DNA of 64,000 nt from the NCBI RefSeq assembly GCF_001693515.2, contig NZ_CP042968.1:7162501-7226500 (forward strand), in the 5' to 3' direction. A program made the translations under genes and the position numbers. Shown here piece by piece: positions 26,919-33,157 of this stretch (position 1 is the first letter of the stretch; each line of letters starts with the position of its first letter). The notes under the pieces are model-generated. The model did no database searches. It worked only from the letters and a program-made list of their open reading frames with translations, and was not told where the DNA came from. Source of the stretch: Bradyrhizobium paxllaeri. GTDB taxonomy: Bacteria; Pseudomonadota; Alphaproteobacteria; Rhizobiales; Xanthobacteraceae.

Positions 26919-27566
26919 ATGTCCGCGATTACACTCAACGATACGGAATTTTCGACAGGCGACCTCTGGGTGTTCGGTTACGGCTCCCTGATGTGGCGCC
27001 CGGGCTTCGACTTCATCGAACGGGTGCCGGCGCGGCTGATCGGGGAACACCGCGCGCTCTGCGTCTATTCCTTCGTCCATCGCGGCACGCCGGAGAAGCC
27101 GGGCCTCGTGCTCGGGCTCGACCGCGGCGGCGCCTGCCGCGGCATCGCGTTCCGCATTGCGGAAAAGCACAGCGCCGCGACCATCGCCTATTTGCGCGAA
27201 CGCGAGCAGGTCACCTCGGTGTATCGCGAGGTGAAACGATCGGTCTGGCTGGAGAACGAGGCGCGCGAACGCGTCAGCGCGCTGGTCTACGTGGTCGATC
27301 GCGGCCACACGCAATATGCCGGGCGACTGTCGCTCACCGAGCAGTTGCGCCACGTGCTGCAGGGGCACGGCCAGTCCGGCGTCAATCGCGACTATGTTCT
27401 GGCCACCGTGAAGGCGATCGAGGCGGAAGGCTTTCGCGATTCCCAGCTGCACCGGCTCGCGGCGATGCTGCACAACCAGCATCCAATCCATCCTTCAAGC
27501 GCAGAAGACGCGGCCTCGCCCGGCGCGCACGGTTCCGCGATTGGTCATCCCCCGCGCCGTCTCTGA
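26919..27566 (+). CDS. ChaC-like gamma-glutamylcyclotransferase
   Basis: A protein of 215 residues of the ChaC family, which releases 5-oxoproline from glutathione (glutathione turnover, cytosolic). The signature VFGYGSLMWRPGFDF is near residues 18-32, with RGTPEKPGLVLGL and GACRGIAFRI in the core. The C terminus from about residue 188 is low-complexity and probably disordered. ATG at 26919 has only a weak Shine-Dalgarno (GCGAGG). Whether it acts on glutathione or on another gamma-glutamyl peptide is not certain. Confidence 0.87.
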   Translation: MSAITLNDTEFSTGDLWVFGYGSLMWRPGFDFIERVPARLIGEHRALCVYSFVHRGTPEKPGLVLGLDRGGACRGIAFRIAEKHSAATIAYLREREQVTSVYREVKRSVWLENEARERVSALVYVVDRGHTQYAGRLSLTEQLRHVLQGHGQSGVNRDYVLATVKAIEAEGFRDSQLHRLAAMLHNQHPIHPSSAEDAASPGAHGSAIGHPPRRL

Positions 27567-27667: not shown

Positions 27668-27910
27668 ATGACCGCAAGCCCGAAGAACGTCGCCTGGACA
27701 GCCCTGCTTGGCAGCACGTTCTATTTGATTTCGATCGGCCCGAGCTTCGCCTATCTGGATCCGGGTTCCGGCAGCATGCTCCTGACCGCCATCCTCGGCG
27801 TGCTGGCTGCGACGACCTACACGCTGAAGGGCTACTTCCACAAGGCGACCACCCTGTTCCGCAGGAACCGACCCGAAGTCGGCGATGCTGCCGCGCGGAC
27901 CAAGGACTGA
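27668..27910 (+). CDS. Small membrane protein of the YLDPGSGS type
   Basis: A protein of 80 residues. A hydrophobic N-terminal segment (WTALLGSTFYLISIGPSFA, signal-like) is followed by the motif AYLDPGSGSMLL and a second hydrophobic segment (AILGVLAATTYTLKGYF), then a basic tail. Small membrane proteins with this YLDPG.GS motif occur, as I recall, next to sulfatase-like and methyltransferase genes in many bacteria; their function is unknown. It lies 97 bp before the NoeA-like gene on the same strand and probably belongs to the same operon. Confidence 0.75.
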   Translation: MTASPKNVAWTALLGSTFYLISIGPSFAYLDPGSGSMLLTAILGVLAATTYTLKGYFHKATTLFRRNRPEVGDAAARTKD

Positions 27911-28007
27911 TCGCGTCATCCGCGAGACTTTCTGAAACGAGACCTGAAGAGGTCGCCCTCGAACCGATGCAATGACCCGCCGCCGCGACCAATAGAATCC
28001 GAAGGAC

Positions 28008-29441
28008 ATGACCCCCGAGCACGGCTCATTTCGCGACGCGAGCAATCGAATTTTCTATCACGACGGCCAAGTGTTGCGGAGCTTGAGTGCGGAAGCAACC
28101 GCCAACTGGCATCAGCTCCGGCAAACGGCGTTCTTTCAGCGGCTCGTGGAAAGCGGCGCGGTCGTCACCACCGAGACGGAAGACCGCCCGGAGATCATGG
28201 CGCAGCTCTCCGGCCGCTGGGCCGGCGTCGTGCGGCACGAGCGGCTGGCGTTCATCTCGTATCCCTATGAGTGGCCGTTCTGGATGTTGAAGGATGCGGC
28301 GCTGCTGCATCTCGACGTACTCTCGCAAGCGCTGGAGAACGGCTGGACGCTGAAGGATGGCTCCGCCTACAACATGCAATGGCGCGGGCAGCGGCCTGTC
28401 TTCATCGACGTCTCGTCATTCGAGCCCTACCGCGACGGCGACTCCTGGGCAGGGTATCGCCAGTTCTGCATGATGTTCATCATTCCCCTGCTGCTCAAGG
28501 CGCATCGCGACATCCAGATTGCGCAGCTCTTGCGGAGCAATCTCGAAGGCGTCGATCCCGAGGAGGCGCTGAAATTCATTTCACCGCGCGACATTTTCCG
28601 GCGCGGCGTCTTCACCCATCTCTACCTGCATGCCCGCCTGCAGGCTCGCGCCAAGCGGGCCGAAGCGCGGACGCCGGCACCGAACACCGCGCCGGCAAAA
28701 TGGTCGGTCCGGCAGACGCGCGAGATGACGCTGCGCATGGTCCAATCCATCAGGCGGATGGTGGCGAAGCTCAACCGCGGCAGCGGCGAGACCACGTGGT
28801 CGGCCTACGAGACGACCCATTCCTACGATGACGCATCGTTGGCCGAAAAGCAGGGCTTCGTCGAACGGCATGTCCGCGGCAAGCGATGGCGTATGGTCTA
28901 CGACCTCGGCAGCAACACGGGAACGTTCGCACGGCTGTGCAGCAGCCACGCCGACCACGTCGTCGCCGTCGATGAGGACGAGCTTGCCATCGACACGCTC
29001 TACCGCCGCCTGAAGGCGGAACAGCCGGGCAATATCACGCCGCTGGTGATGCCGCTGAGCAACGTATCACCGGACCAGGGCTGGCGCGGCCGGGAAAGGA
29101 AATCGTTCGACAGCCGCGGCAAGCCCGACCTGATCCTGTGCCTGGCGCTGATCCATCACATGGTGATCTCGGCGAATATTCCAATGCAGGATTTTCTGCA
29201 GTGGCTCCGCAGTTTCGACGCCACGGTCGTGCTGGAGTTCGTGGGACCTGAGGACGAGATGACGTTGCGCCTGACGAAGAACAAGAAAGACGCGCATCCC
29301 GACTATACGCAGGCCCAGTTCGAATCCATCGCCGCGTCGATGTTCGATATCGCCGATGCGGCACTGCTCAAGGAAGGCCGCAGGCAGATTTATCTGCTGC
29401 AACCAAAACCGGCACCGGTTCCATCCCCGAGCGCGGCATGA
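28008..29441 (+). CDS. SAM-dependent methyltransferase, NoeA-like
   Basis: A protein of 477 residues. The first 290 are a conserved-looking domain without membrane segments (SGRWAGVVRHERL, YPYEWPFWMLKDAALLHLD, QGQ-like WRGQRPVFIDVSSFEPY). A class I methyltransferase domain follows, with YDLGSNTGTFARL at about 298-310 and VVAVDEDELAID as motif II. This arrangement resembles the rhizobial nodulation protein NoeA and relatives. The substrate is unknown; a surface sugar is plausible given the next gene. Its stop overlaps the following ATG by 4 bp. Confidence 0.75.
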   Translation: MTPEHGSFRDASNRIFYHDGQVLRSLSAEATANWHQLRQTAFFQRLVESGAVVTTETEDRPEIMAQLSGRWAGVVRHERLAFISYPYEWPFWMLKDAALLHLDVLSQALENGWTLKDGSAYNMQWRGQRPVFIDVSSFEPYRDGDSWAGYRQFCMMFIIPLLLKAHRDIQIAQLLRSNLEGVDPEEALKFISPRDIFRRGVFTHLYLHARLQARAKRAEARTPAPNTAPAKWSVRQTREMTLRMVQSIRRMVAKLNRGSGETTWSAYETTHSYDDASLAEKQGFVERHVRGKRWRMVYDLGSNTGTFARLCSSHADHVVAVDEDELAIDTLYRRLKAEQPGNITPLVMPLSNVSPDQGWRGRERKSFDSRGKPDLILCLALIHHMVISANIPMQDFLQWLRSFDATVVLEFVGPEDEMTLRLTKNKKDAHPDYTQAQFESIAASMFDIADAALLKEGRRQIYLLQPKPAPVPSPSAA

Positions 29442-32413
29442 ACGTGATGGCAACCGAAAGCGCGGTCCCTGCGCGCGCACAAAACGCGTTCCTGCTGCAT
29501 CTTGCGCTGTCAGCCATTGCCATCGCGCAGCCGTTCTATTCCGTGACCGGGAAGACGCTGAATTTTTTCGTCGCCTGGAGGATGAGCAGCGTCGAGTTTA
29601 CGTTCTGCATATTGCTCATCTACATCGTACCGCCGGTCGTCACCTGGCTGCTGGTCGAGCTCGGCAACCGTTTGCACCGGAACCTCGGCAGCGCACTGTT
29701 GTTCGTGGTCCTCTGCTTCTACATCTCGCTGACTTTGCTGATGGCGGCGCGCCAGTTGGTGCATAGCCTGCCGTTCGCGACGCGCCCCGAGGTGCCGCTC
29801 TGGATGTTCGCCCTGCTGCTGATCCTATCGGCCGGTCTCGCGGCACTGTTGTTCGCGAAGCCGAAAGTTCAAGGATTTGTCAGGTTCTTTGCCGTGGCGA
29901 CGGTGATCTTCCCTGTCACCGTGCTGCTCCATGCCCGCGACTTGGGCGTGATCCAGTTTTCCGAAGTGCCGCCGGCCGAAAAAATCGAAACCGCCGACCG
30001 GCCCAACGTCATCCTGATCATCTACGACGAACTGCCGCTAACCACGATCCTCGACGCAAACGGCCTGATCGATCGAAACAAATTTCCGAACTTTTACCAA
30101 TTCGCGCAAGGCGCAACCTGGTTGCCAAACGCGCGTTCCACGTCCGGACATACCGAGGCCGCCGTGCCATCCATTCTCGCGGGACAAGTACGGGAGAACG
30201 GGGTGCCCGCGACCTACAAGAGCTATCCGGAGAATATCTTCCATCGACTTGGTCCGAGCTATAACGTTCTCGACCTGCAATCCGCGACCGACTTGAACCC
30301 GGTCAAGCAGCTAGGGGAAACGACGGATTCGCGCGATGACAACAACCGGCACCGCAAGATCGCCCGCGACGTAGCGATCATCCTTGCGCATGTGTTGGCG
30401 CCCCGACAGCTCACCGCAAGGCTACCGTCGGTCGGCACGCGGCATAATCGCTTTGGCGAAGATGCTTTCAAGTCATGGCGCGGCGCTCGGCATCATGACG
30501 CATTCGTCGCGGCTTTGGCACATGTCGAAAAGCCGTTTCTCGCCATCTACCACAACATCTATCCGCACAATGGCTGGAACAACTATCCGTCGGGACGTCC
30601 TTATCCCTCGTCCCGATGGGGTGAATACCTTTCGTTAGCCGACCACGAAGACACGAGACTTGGCCAAGACAATGCCAGGCTCCTGCACGACTATAAAGCC
30701 CATTTGCTTCAATCGATGCATGCGGACAAGCTGTTCGGCGAGCTGTTGGCACAGTTGAAGAAGAACGGGCAGTACGATCATTCGATCATCGCTTTTGTCG
30801 CCGATCATGGCCTCTCGCTATGGCCGGGGGAACGACCGCGCAATCCCAGCGAAGCTCACCAATCGGACGTCTTCGCGATCCCGATGATCGTCAAACTTCC
30901 GGGACAGACGGACGGAAGAGTAACGCTCGAGCCGGTATACACGACAGACATTTATCCAACCATCCTCGACTATCTCGGCGTTTCGATTCCGGAACGCCTG
31001 CAAGGCAAATCATTCGTCAAATCCATTCGTGATGCAGCGACGGCCGACACGGTAAAGTCAACGCAGCACCGCGACGATCCTACCCTGAAACGCCGGCTGG
31101 AGTGGTTTGGAGCGGGAACGTCGATGGCCGACCTATATGGGCTCGGCAAATTCCGCGGCTATATGGGGCGCAACATTAACGAATTCGAACTTATTGCCAT
31201 GCCCGAAGCTCGTGTTCACCTCATCGGGACCAGCATTGACATCGCAGGCCCCCGACTTTCGGCCCGCATTGATGCGCGGATCCAGGGCGGGGCGCAGGAC
31301 GGCAAACCCTGGGACATCCTGATCGCGTTGGGCGGTCGTATTTGCGGCGCGACCCAGACGACCGACCTGGCGGTAAGCGGCAAGGCGAATTCGTTTACGC
31401 TGGTCGTTGCCGAGGAATGCCTTGGCCTACTGAGGAAGGGTGTAAGGGTCTTCGCGATCGGCTCCGATGAGCGTCTCGCAGAAATATCCGTCCACAGCGA
31501 GCAGCCGACCACCCCTCCTCCGACGATTGATCAGATTCTCGAAAAGCTGGCCGAGTTGATCGACACCTTGCAGAGGACTGCAGAGGATGTTCAAGGGCAG
31601 GCGGATCTGCAGGCGCTGAGCCAAGGCAAGATCGCCGTGCCGGGCCTGTTTGTGCGGGAACAGCAGCTCGCGACGCCCTGGGGCGAAGTCGTGCTCACGC
31701 GCGATGGACGCAGATGGCTGATCGACCTGTATTCCGTTCCAAGGGAAATGTGCAAGGCCATTCATCTCCATGCCGACAAGGTCCCAGGCGTCATCCGCAT
31801 TGCGGCGTCGGGTGCAGCGCGGGACGAGACCGATATTCCCGTGACAGCTGAAGGCGCCGAGTTCGCATGTTCGAATCCAGATTCGGAAATGATCCGGATC
31901 ATCGCGTCCGATGCACCGGCCCGTGGCGCTGCATCCGCCCCCCCTCCCGCAACCGGCCGGTTACTCGCTCAGCTAGCCGAATTGATCGACGGTCTGGACA
32001 AGGTTACCGAGAACTCACAGGGGCAGGTGACCCTGGAGGCGCTGCGCAAGCTTGGCGTCGCCGTGCCAGCTATTTTCATCAGGGATCGACAACTGGCATG
32101 GCCGTGGGGGGAGGCCGCGGTCACGCGGGGCAAACGCGAATGGATCCTCGACCTGCATTCTGCGCCTGCGGACGTGTGCAGGGCTATACACTTGGGCGCC
32201 GATGAAATTCCGGGTGCTGCCCGCATCGCGACATCGGGCTTCGCAAACGATGAGGCAACGATCCCGGTCACCGCCGCACAGGCTGACGCGGCGTGCTCAA
32301 GCATAAAATCGAACGTCCGCCTCATCGTGAACGACAAGTCGATTGCCAATCTTGCGCGGGAGACAGTCGCAGCGCCCTGGCGAAGACTGAAGAGAGCCGT
32401 CAGCGGGCAATAA
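29438..32413 (+). CDS. Membrane AlkP-superfamily transferase/hydrolase with two pilin-like C-terminal repeats
   Basis: A protein of 991 residues. Four or five membrane helices (about 20-180) precede an alkaline-phosphatase-superfamily domain: NVILIIYDE at 190-198, a GHTEAAVPSILAG motif with candidate Thr239 nucleophile, and VADHG with Asp456/His457. There is no C.P.R sulfatase motif, so it is more like EptA/LtaS phosphotransferases than a type I sulfatase. From about 699 and 841 two homologous units follow, each with AELID, a TPWGE or WPWGE block, a P..(M/V)C.AIH Cys and a second Cys in an FACSNP or DAACSS block. These resemble PilS-type pilin C-terminal domains. It is coupled to the methyltransferase gene. 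Confidence 0.8.
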   Translation: MNVMATESAVPARAQNAFLLHLALSAIAIAQPFYSVTGKTLNFFVAWRMSSVEFTFCILLIYIVPPVVTWLLVELGNRLHRNLGSALLFVVLCFYISLTLLMAARQLVHSLPFATRPEVPLWMFALLLILSAGLAALLFAKPKVQGFVRFFAVATVIFPVTVLLHARDLGVIQFSEVPPAEKIETADRPNVILIIYDELPLTTILDANGLIDRNKFPNFYQFAQGATWLPNARSTSGHTEAAVPSILAGQVRENGVPATYKSYPENIFHRLGPSYNVLDLQSATDLNPVKQLGETTDSRDDNNRHRKIARDVAIILAHVLAPRQLTARLPSVGTRHNRFGEDAFKSWRGARHHDAFVAALAHVEKPFLAIYHNIYPHNGWNNYPSGRPYPSSRWGEYLSLADHEDTRLGQDNARLLHDYKAHLLQSMHADKLFGELLAQLKKNGQYDHSIIAFVADHGLSLWPGERPRNPSEAHQSDVFAIPMIVKLPGQTDGRVTLEPVYTTDIYPTILDYLGVSIPERLQGKSFVKSIRDAATADTVKSTQHRDDPTLKRRLEWFGAGTSMADLYGLGKFRGYMGRNINEFELIAMPEARVHLIGTSIDIAGPRLSARIDARIQGGAQDGKPWDILIALGGRICGATQTTDLAVSGKANSFTLVVAEECLGLLRKGVRVFAIGSDERLAEISVHSEQPTTPPPTIDQILEKLAELIDTLQRTAEDVQGQADLQALSQGKIAVPGLFVREQQLATPWGEVVLTRDGRRWLIDLYSVPREMCKAIHLHADKVPGVIRIAASGAARDETDIPVTAEGAEFACSNPDSEMIRIIASDAPARGAASAPPPATGRLLAQLAELIDGLDKVTENSQGQVTLEALRKLGVAVPAIFIRDRQLAWPWGEAAVTRGKREWILDLHSAPADVCRAIHLGADEIPGAARIATSGFANDEATIPVTAAQADAACSSIKSNVRLIVNDKSIANLARETVAAPWRRLKRAVSGQ

Positions 32414-32449: not shown

Positions 32450-33157
32450 TCAGTTGGCTTGCGCCGTCGCCGGCCGGCGCGGCGCCGGCGCAGGCTGATC
32501 GGAGGGGTCGGACGTCAGTTCGACACCCACATCGGCCAGCCGCACGCGCACCTCGGCGGCGACGTATTTCGCATATTCCGACAGCAACAGACGCAGCGTC
32601 GCGCCGCTGGTCCACCACGGCTCGTCGCGCCATCTGTCGCCGATCACTGCAAATGGAATCAGCGTCACGTCCGGCATCGCGTGCGACAGTTCCAGGATGG
32701 CTCGCGGCATGTGGTAGTTCGACGTCACCACGATCAGCGACTTGAAGCCGCGCTCGCGGGCCCAGCGCCGCGTCTCCGCGGCATTGCTGCGCGTGTTGAC
32801 GGCGGAGCGGTCGAGATCGACGCAGCAGCCGAGCAGCGACTGATTGTCGGGTAGCGAGCGTGAAATGTCCCTGACGGCGTTGGTCGGATGCACGCCCGAA
32901 ATCAACAGCCGCTTGCCGTAGCCCGCGGCCAGCAATTCCATCGCATCCGACACCCGCGACGAACCGCCGGTGAACACCACGATGCCGTCGGCGGTGCGCG
33001 CCGGCTTGATCTCGACGCCGCGCAATTGCGAGAGAAAGGCGATGAAGCCCACCGCCGCGCCGACGAACAGGATCGCCATGGAGCCAACGATGATCGCGCG
33101 CAGCAACCCGCGCGGTCGCGCGGCTCTCGGCGTGCTATCGGCGTGCTGCAAATCCAT
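32450..33157 (-). CDS. YdcF/ElyC family protein (DUF218)
   Basis: A protein of 235 residues with one N-terminal membrane helix (LLRAIIVGSMAILFVGAAVGFIAF, quoted in part; about 18-42) and a DUF218 domain: GIVVFTGGSSRVSDAMELL, RLLISGVHP, SNAAETRRWARERG, IVVTSNYHMPRA. Members (SanA, ElyC, YdcF) act at the envelope, some in peptidoglycan or lipid-carrier homeostasis; the reaction is not established. The tail is Pro/Ala-rich. It lies downstream of ftsEX on the same strand with a 113-bp gap. Confidence 0.85.
   Translation of the reverse strand: MDLQHADSTPRAARPRGLLRAIIVGSMAILFVGAAVGFIAFLSQLRGVEIKPARTADGIVVFTGGSSRVSDAMELLAAGYGKRLLISGVHPTNAVRDISRSLPDNQSLLGCCVDLDRSAVNTRSNAAETRRWARERGFKSLIVVTSNYHMPRAILELSHAMPDVTLIPFAVIGDRWRDEPWWTSGATLRLLLSEYAKYVAAEVRVRLADVGVELTSDPSDQPAPAPRRPATAQAN

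Follow-up and report, generated by a model that had tools for sequence, protein, structure and literature searches.

The locus lies in Bradyrhizobium paxllaeri, in a stretch of 64,000 nucleotides (the window; 7162501-7226500 on one 8.38-Mb contig), and comprises three genes at about 7.19 Mb. An earlier note on this DNA had proposed three open reading frames in one direction, the last two overlapping by 4 bp (ATGA); all three frames, their common strand and the overlap were confirmed, and 97 bp separate genes 1 and 2. Pfam recognises a methyltransferase in gene 2 and a Sulfatase/AlkP domain in gene 3, and finds no match in gene 1. The genes, their predicted domains and their flanks are as follows.

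26919-27566: ChaC gene, upstream flank (PF04752, 6.5e-43)
27668..27910, plus strand: gene 1, YLDPG small protein of 80 aa (open reading frame)
27752..27775, plus strand: YLDPGSGS motif, residues 29-36 of gene 1, with Y29, D31 and P32 invariant
28008..29441, plus strand: gene 2, NoeA-type kinase-methyltransferase of 477 aa (open reading frame and NoeA homology)
28008..28769, plus strand: predicted kinase-fold domain, residues 1-254, with R24, D117, N122 and D134 (AF2, Foldseek, VIA)
28875..29402, plus strand: predicted class I SAM methyltransferase domain, residues 290-465 approximately, with D299-x-G301-x-N303-x-G305
29438..29441, plus strand: ATGA overlap of the gene 2 stop and the gene 3 start, read in the sequence
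29438..32413, plus strand: gene 3, AlkP-superfamily membrane enzyme of 991 aa (PF00884, 7.9e-19)
29564..29929, plus strand: five hydrophobic segments, residues 43-164 of gene 3 (hydropathy scan)
29999..31072, plus strand: AlkP catalytic region, residues 188-545 approximately, with D197, T239, H372, H377, D456 and H457
31526..31942, plus strand: first pilin-head repeat, residues 697-835 of gene 3 approximately
31952..32362, plus strand: second pilin-head repeat, residues 839-975 of gene 3 approximately
32450-33157: DUF218 gene, downstream flank, convergent (PF02698, 1.7e-14)

The GC contents of genes 1, 2 and 3 are 0.630, 0.626 and 0.595, whereas six neighbours range from 0.64 to 0.68 and the window as a whole has 0.626; gene 3 alone is below the window mean, and genes 1 and 2 are below the six neighbours but not below the window. 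The ChaC frame extends (window 27489-27566) about 18-25 residues beyond the last residue aligned in close relatives.

Read by eye, the gene 1 product displays a signal-peptide-like start, the YLDPGSGS motif, a hydrophobic stretch and a basic tail. The earlier note had called it a membrane peptide with this motif. The motif is there, but the membrane nature is a judgement by eye, and a hydropathy scan (19 residues, threshold 1.6) flagged zero segments. The three invariant residues are kept in 40 of 40 aligned peptides. No family in Pfam or NCBIfam matches the protein (an NCBIfam beta-lactamase match of one of the 40 peptides, E 0.00037, was discarded as a chance match of the signal peptide), and the database names among the best 120 of 4111 homologues are 'hypothetical protein', one flagellar name excepted. 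Literature searches by motif (YLDPGSGS, YLDPGTGS, YLDPG) found no mention of it. Many other YLDPG peptides have a signal-peptide-like start ending in A-x-A ahead of the motif; others, such as L098, L103 and L121 (some of them actinobacterial), start a few residues before YLDPG and leave no room for a signal peptide.

A degenerate DNA pattern for YLDPG[ST]G[ST] was run on the 8.38-Mb genome, which it matched once, and on 142 genomes of the class, seven of which match. Gene 2 is found in nine of these 142 genomes and coincides with the pattern in six, the match being located 171-256 bp upstream of the gene 2 homologue. The association of the motif with gene 2 exceeds chance. At the seventh match (G106), the YLDPG segment forms the N-terminus of a CDP-glycerol glycerophosphotransferase (PF04464, 6.4e-13).

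L037:4586-8931, minus strand: YLDPG-PF04464 fusion and adjacent 1003-aa YidC (PF02096)-Sulfatase protein

For this YidC/sulfatase/CDP-glycerol combination, no literature match was found. The pattern also matched in G236, G317 and G480; these matches were put down to chance, because L154, L160 and L161 contain no match to the peptide HMM described below at an i-E below 0.05.

Gene 2 had been presented as a NoeA-like methyltransferase. Its relation to NoeA stands (31% identity to the Sinorhizobium meliloti protein over 461 of 477 aa, E 7e-83), but it is not a methyltransferase alone, since a kinase-like domain is present too. The AF2 model of residues 1-254 has a pLDDT of 92.9, and both Foldseek and VIA point to a kinase fold. 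R24, D117, N122 and D134 are invariant in 58 of 58 sequences, with an Arg at the Lys72 position and the Asp, Asn and Asp catalytic residues in place. The methyltransferase part is matched by three Pfam families, all below their cut-offs.

The AlkP-superfamily identity proposed for gene 3 is borne out by its PF00884 match. In the aligned AlkP sequences, the metal ligands are conserved at D197 (76/76), H372 (73/74), H377 (75/75), D456 (73/73) and H457 (65/73). The putative nucleophile position 239 is a threonine in 69 and a serine in 6 of 75 sequences and a cysteine in none; around T239, gene 3 reads SGHTEAAVP and lacks C/S-x-P-x-R, the nucleophile motif of formylglycine sulfatases. As none of these 75 departs from Thr or Ser, the addition or removal of a sulfo-group, which the earlier note had offered as one option, is unlikely. 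Used as a query on the class sample, gene 3 found a full-length match only in the window's own gene, and 47 other genomes matched in the generic AlkP region, over about 90-210 residues; gene 3 was therefore tracked by position and profile.

The C-terminal region of gene 3 contains the head-domain fold of type IVb pilins in tandem, an assignment based on VIA Z, Pfam and conserved residues; Foldseek with this region gave no pilin match below E 0.001. The heads have neither an N-terminal leader nor a hydrophobic alpha-1 helix of their own, the hydrophobic segments of the protein being near its N-terminus. They are absent from the AlkP proteins of the other lineages looked at, and within the genus two further polytopic membrane proteins also end in a C-terminal pilin head.

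L219:5094-7946, minus strand: first such protein
L220:3986-5848: second such protein

One of the two adjoins GtrA, near GT2 genes. The absence of the heads from the AlkP proteins of other lineages and their presence on other membrane proteins suggest a general ectodomain. No paper on a pilin-sulfatase fusion was found, judged by titles.

Joint conservation of the three genes, which the earlier note had proposed to look for, is observed: they recur together in many lineages. A literature search for the neighbourhood found just an unrelated paper on Actinoplanes. A pattern search of a genome collection gave at least 590 stretches, of which 574 could be confirmed and the best 80 were retained; together with seven loci of the class sample and the window they form a set of 88 loci (G141, a partial gene 2 match at a contig end, was left out). 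The record titles of the homologues include Alpha- and Gammaproteobacteria, Planctomycetota, Acidobacteria, Actinomycetota, Chloroflexi, Binatia, Elusimicrobia, Ignavibacteria, Bacteroidota, Armatimonadetes and Nitrospira; the records are mostly metagenome bins, so single taxon labels may be wrong. A peptide HMM built from 59 adjacent motif-bearing frames was run on all frames of the 88 loci, 20,914 in 1.37 Mb of sequence. Its matches adjoin gene 2 in 85 of the 88 loci, all with an i-E below 1e-6, and elsewhere in these frames there is a single other match below i-E 0.1, in L126. The loci lacking a match beside gene 2 are L126, L137 (contig edge) and L038. As 59 of the loci built the HMM, independent support comes from the other 26.

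An AlkP HMM, seeded with P0003, homologues and up to 20 of the 88 loci, matches within 6 kb of gene 2 in 72 of the 88; the 16 loci with no match were counted against the reading given below. By a layout rule, the AlkP gene is immediately downstream on the same strand in only 43 loci, which also counted against that reading, convergent in 10, further downstream in 3 and upstream in 14, and is lacking in 18, three of these at contig ends. A YidC-like gene (PF02096) is located directly downstream of gene 2, replacing the AlkP gene or besides it, at L113:10015-10671 and L159:8093-8755 (minus strand), and likewise in L072 and L073. Within the class sample, a YLDPG frame with a variant motif precedes gene 2 in G005, and G095 has the peptide and no AlkP gene downstream.

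The neighbourhood is also conserved in other Rhizobiales, where its absence would have counted against the earlier proposal, although the module is sparse. Six of the 150 genomes sampled from the order have a full-length gene 2, and all six have an adjacent peptide frame and a nearby match to the AlkP profile; some of these matches are weak, as in G253 and G254 (i-E about 1e-4), and that of G249 is on the other side and strand. In 35 of the 41 order-sample genomes with a match, it covered about 40-65 methyltransferase residues alone and was not counted as gene 2. Two of the four members of the genus in this sample are without gene 2, and in a sample of 80 genomes of the genus, five carry it, in six copies in total. 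Each of the five copies outside the window has an adjacent DHG-bearing AlkP-type frame and a nearby YLDPG-type frame, which is on the opposite strand in L199 and L200.

The three genes were gained or lost together at this site. Among 12 relatives compared there, 10 have both the ChaC and the DUF218 flank and two have ChaC alone. In G608, G630 and G626 (ChaC 92-98% identical), only 45, 36 and 21 bp separate the last aligned ChaC residue from the DUF218 end; in the window this distance is about 4.9 kb. The three genes are present at the same site in G629 (ChaC 86%). The other seven of the 10 relatives with both flanks have gaps of about 0.8-1.0 kb, in which tblastn finds no match to the three genes. 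A second gene 2 copy of G629 is found near a long frame that is relaxase-like by eye (L202:3003-6056, minus strand), which hints at a mobile setting.

We read the locus as a chromosomal envelope-glycan module of the NoeA/NoeB type that works as set out below, and give this reading a probability of about 0.5. The three-gene set would probably modify a sugar of the cell surface with phosphate and methyl groups. On the cytoplasmic side, the kinase would phosphorylate a lipid-linked or nascent glycan, and the methyltransferase would methylate either this phosphate or a hydroxyl close to it, in the manner of WbdD on the O9a chain; fold, residues and the WbdD precedent are the grounds for this step. 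The AlkP enzyme may transfer or trim a phosphoester on the same glycan from the outer side of the membrane, a step suggested by its nucleophile. The YLDPG peptide could tie the two enzymes or the glycan carrier together, its motif-bearing end lying outside and its basic tail inside the cell, in the cytoplasm. This coupling rests on conservation and on a topology judged by eye, and the scaffold role that the earlier note had suggested for the peptide is plausible. In the Bradyrhizobium lineage, the two pilin-head ectodomains of the AlkP enzyme probably bind the glycan or a surface partner.

In line with the proposed decoration of a surface glycan, polysaccharide-type neighbours are present in some genomes. 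A glycan context around gene 2 was seen by reading in L153 and L032, and group 1 glycosyltransferases account for 8 of 135 neighbouring frames at 27 loci, a modest enrichment obtained with crude frame picking. The fusion of the peptide with a CDP-glycerol glycerophosphotransferase in G106 and the pilin head on a polytopic protein beside GtrA were counted in favour of the glycan reading. The neighbours within the window are housekeeping genes, with no polysaccharide cluster, which was counted against it, as were the weak similarity of NoeB to gene 3 and the lack of a flagged membrane segment in the peptide.

A teichoic-acid-like system is an unlikely alternative, in which an envelope lipid or glycan would receive phosphoglycerol or some other phospho-polyol, transferred or polymerised by the AlkP enzyme, with the kinase-methyltransferase priming or capping the chain. 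Gene 3 weakly matches the LTA primase 4uop and LTA synthase, and the G106 fusion beside the YidC-Sulfatase protein points the same way; however, that fusion was found in one genome only, and a CDP-polyol gene is absent among the window neighbours in the stretch listed.

It is improbable that the module decorates Nod factors, as hypothesised for S. meliloti NoeA and NoeB in the portion consulted of a 2022 paper (PMC9048898). NoeA homology, the matching gene order in the nodL operon and the presence of nodA in the genome favour such a role, as does a truncated noeA in a strain that, according to an excerpt of PMC4053727, does not nodulate 17 of 27 Medicago truncatula genotypes. However, nodA, found at 5.17 and 5.49 Mb, is some 1.7-2 Mb away from the three genes, and the record titles of homologues include Planctomycetota, Acidobacteria, Actinomycetota and others not known to nodulate; on location and distribution, a reading confined to Nod factors was judged unlikely.

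G000:C1:5173109-5173693: full NodA match
G000:C1:5486530-5487114: full NodA match
G000:C1:5475989-5476352: broken NodA match

Equally improbable is a phospho-decoration of pilins or surface proteins, with the AlkP enzyme adding a phospho-form to a pilus-like partner that its own heads dock to or mimic. The neisserial enzyme PptA belongs to the AlkP superfamily and decorates pilin, and gene 3 carries tandem pilin heads; yet the heads are lacking in the AlkP proteins of the other lineages looked at and occur on other membrane proteins of the genus, and the kinase-methyltransferase would be left without explanation. Finally, that gene 3 is a sulfatase removing sulfate from a glycan is very improbable and was rejected on the nucleophile evidence, even though Pfam names the domain Sulfatase and there are partial arylsulfatase matches in NCBIfam, which fall far short of their cut-offs.

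The envelope-glycan module remains our preferred reading, and we tentatively extend it, at less than even odds, to an unrecognised three-part machine marked by the YLDPG peptide across many phyla. In such a machine, a membrane peptide would couple a cytoplasmic kinase-methyltransferase to an outer-face AlkP phosphotransferase, and it would have been overlooked even inside nodL-noeA-noeB. In Bradyrhizobium, the tandem type IVb pilin heads would have been acquired as an ectodomain that targets a glycan or the surface, and this domain would also have moved onto large polytopic, probably glycosyltransferase-type, membrane proteins. If true, a glycan phospho-methyl modification common to bacteria this diverse would join the widespread types of envelope chemistry, and the pilin fold would have a new use, as an enzyme ectodomain. 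Besides, if the unlabelled frame between nodL and noeA is a required part, noeA/noeB function becomes directly testable in a laboratory symbiont.

Among the closest known systems is nodL-noeA-noeB of S. meliloti, whose noeA and noeB were reportedly named as host-range genes in a 1995 paper by Ardourel. A tblastn search with gene 2 returned 65 plasmid records, 57 of them from Sinorhizobium. On pSymA of S. meliloti ml47, nodL is followed in turn by a 71-aa 'hypothetical protein', noeA and noeB. The 71-aa frame contains AHAYLDPGTGSMLVQ, is 48% identical to the window peptide over 42 aa (E 2e-13) and was left out of the operon's name. NoeB is an AlkP-type protein (PF00884, 2e-10) that shows only weak similarity to gene 3 (23% over 128 aa, E 0.006) and holds the equivalent position in the gene set. 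The two systems share the peptide frame, the kinase-methyltransferase, the AlkP-type gene, their order and their strand. They differ in that the S. meliloti genes follow nodL on a symbiotic plasmid, whereas the window module is chromosomal, with ChaC and DUF218 adjoining it and no nodL beside it, unlike the nod-box operon; NoeB has 553 aa and no pilin heads.

The AlkP-superfamily enzymes LTA synthase, YejM and phosphonate monoester hydrolase resemble gene 3 in the catalytic region, as partial matches far below the family cut-offs, and differ in C-terminal architecture. The type IVb pilins PilS, CofA and TcpA have their own leader and polymerising helix, whereas the heads of gene 3 are C-terminal ectodomains of a polytopic enzyme. 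WbdD, the chain terminator of Escherichia coli O9a, also joins a kinase and a methyltransferase in one glycan-acting protein, in the order methyltransferase, kinase and coiled coil according to the portion of PMC3482155 consulted, whereas the kinase of gene 2 is N-terminal and its methyltransferase C-terminal. By sequence, the methyltransferase part matches WbdD weakly (E 0.44-0.54) and the kinase part does not match; the WbdD kinase is absent among the 50 VIA matches listed for the gene 2 kinase domain, which excludes nothing.

The Lani_1194/NoeA family is described, in the extracts of PMC9758233 that we consulted, as a kinase plus methyltransferase with Arg for Lys72 and Asp/Asn/Asp catalytic residues, with about two thousand homologues, 94% of them with the methyltransferase. 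Of 816 neighbourhoods, 65% include Lani_1193 and 38% include Lani_1195; an alkaline phosphatase fold is predicted for Lani_1195 and for NoeB. This family shares with the window module the two domains of gene 2, the Arg at Lys72, the Asp/Asn/Asp catalytic residues and the AlkP-fold neighbour. That paper already contains the pairing of kinase-methyltransferase and AlkP with its conserved neighbours, so the 'undescribed system' of the earlier note is not supported. The same extracts do not give the identity of Lani_1193 and leave the YLDPG peptide and the pilin heads unmentioned; what seems to have escaped notice so far is the YLDPG peptide together with the pilus-like tail of gene 3.
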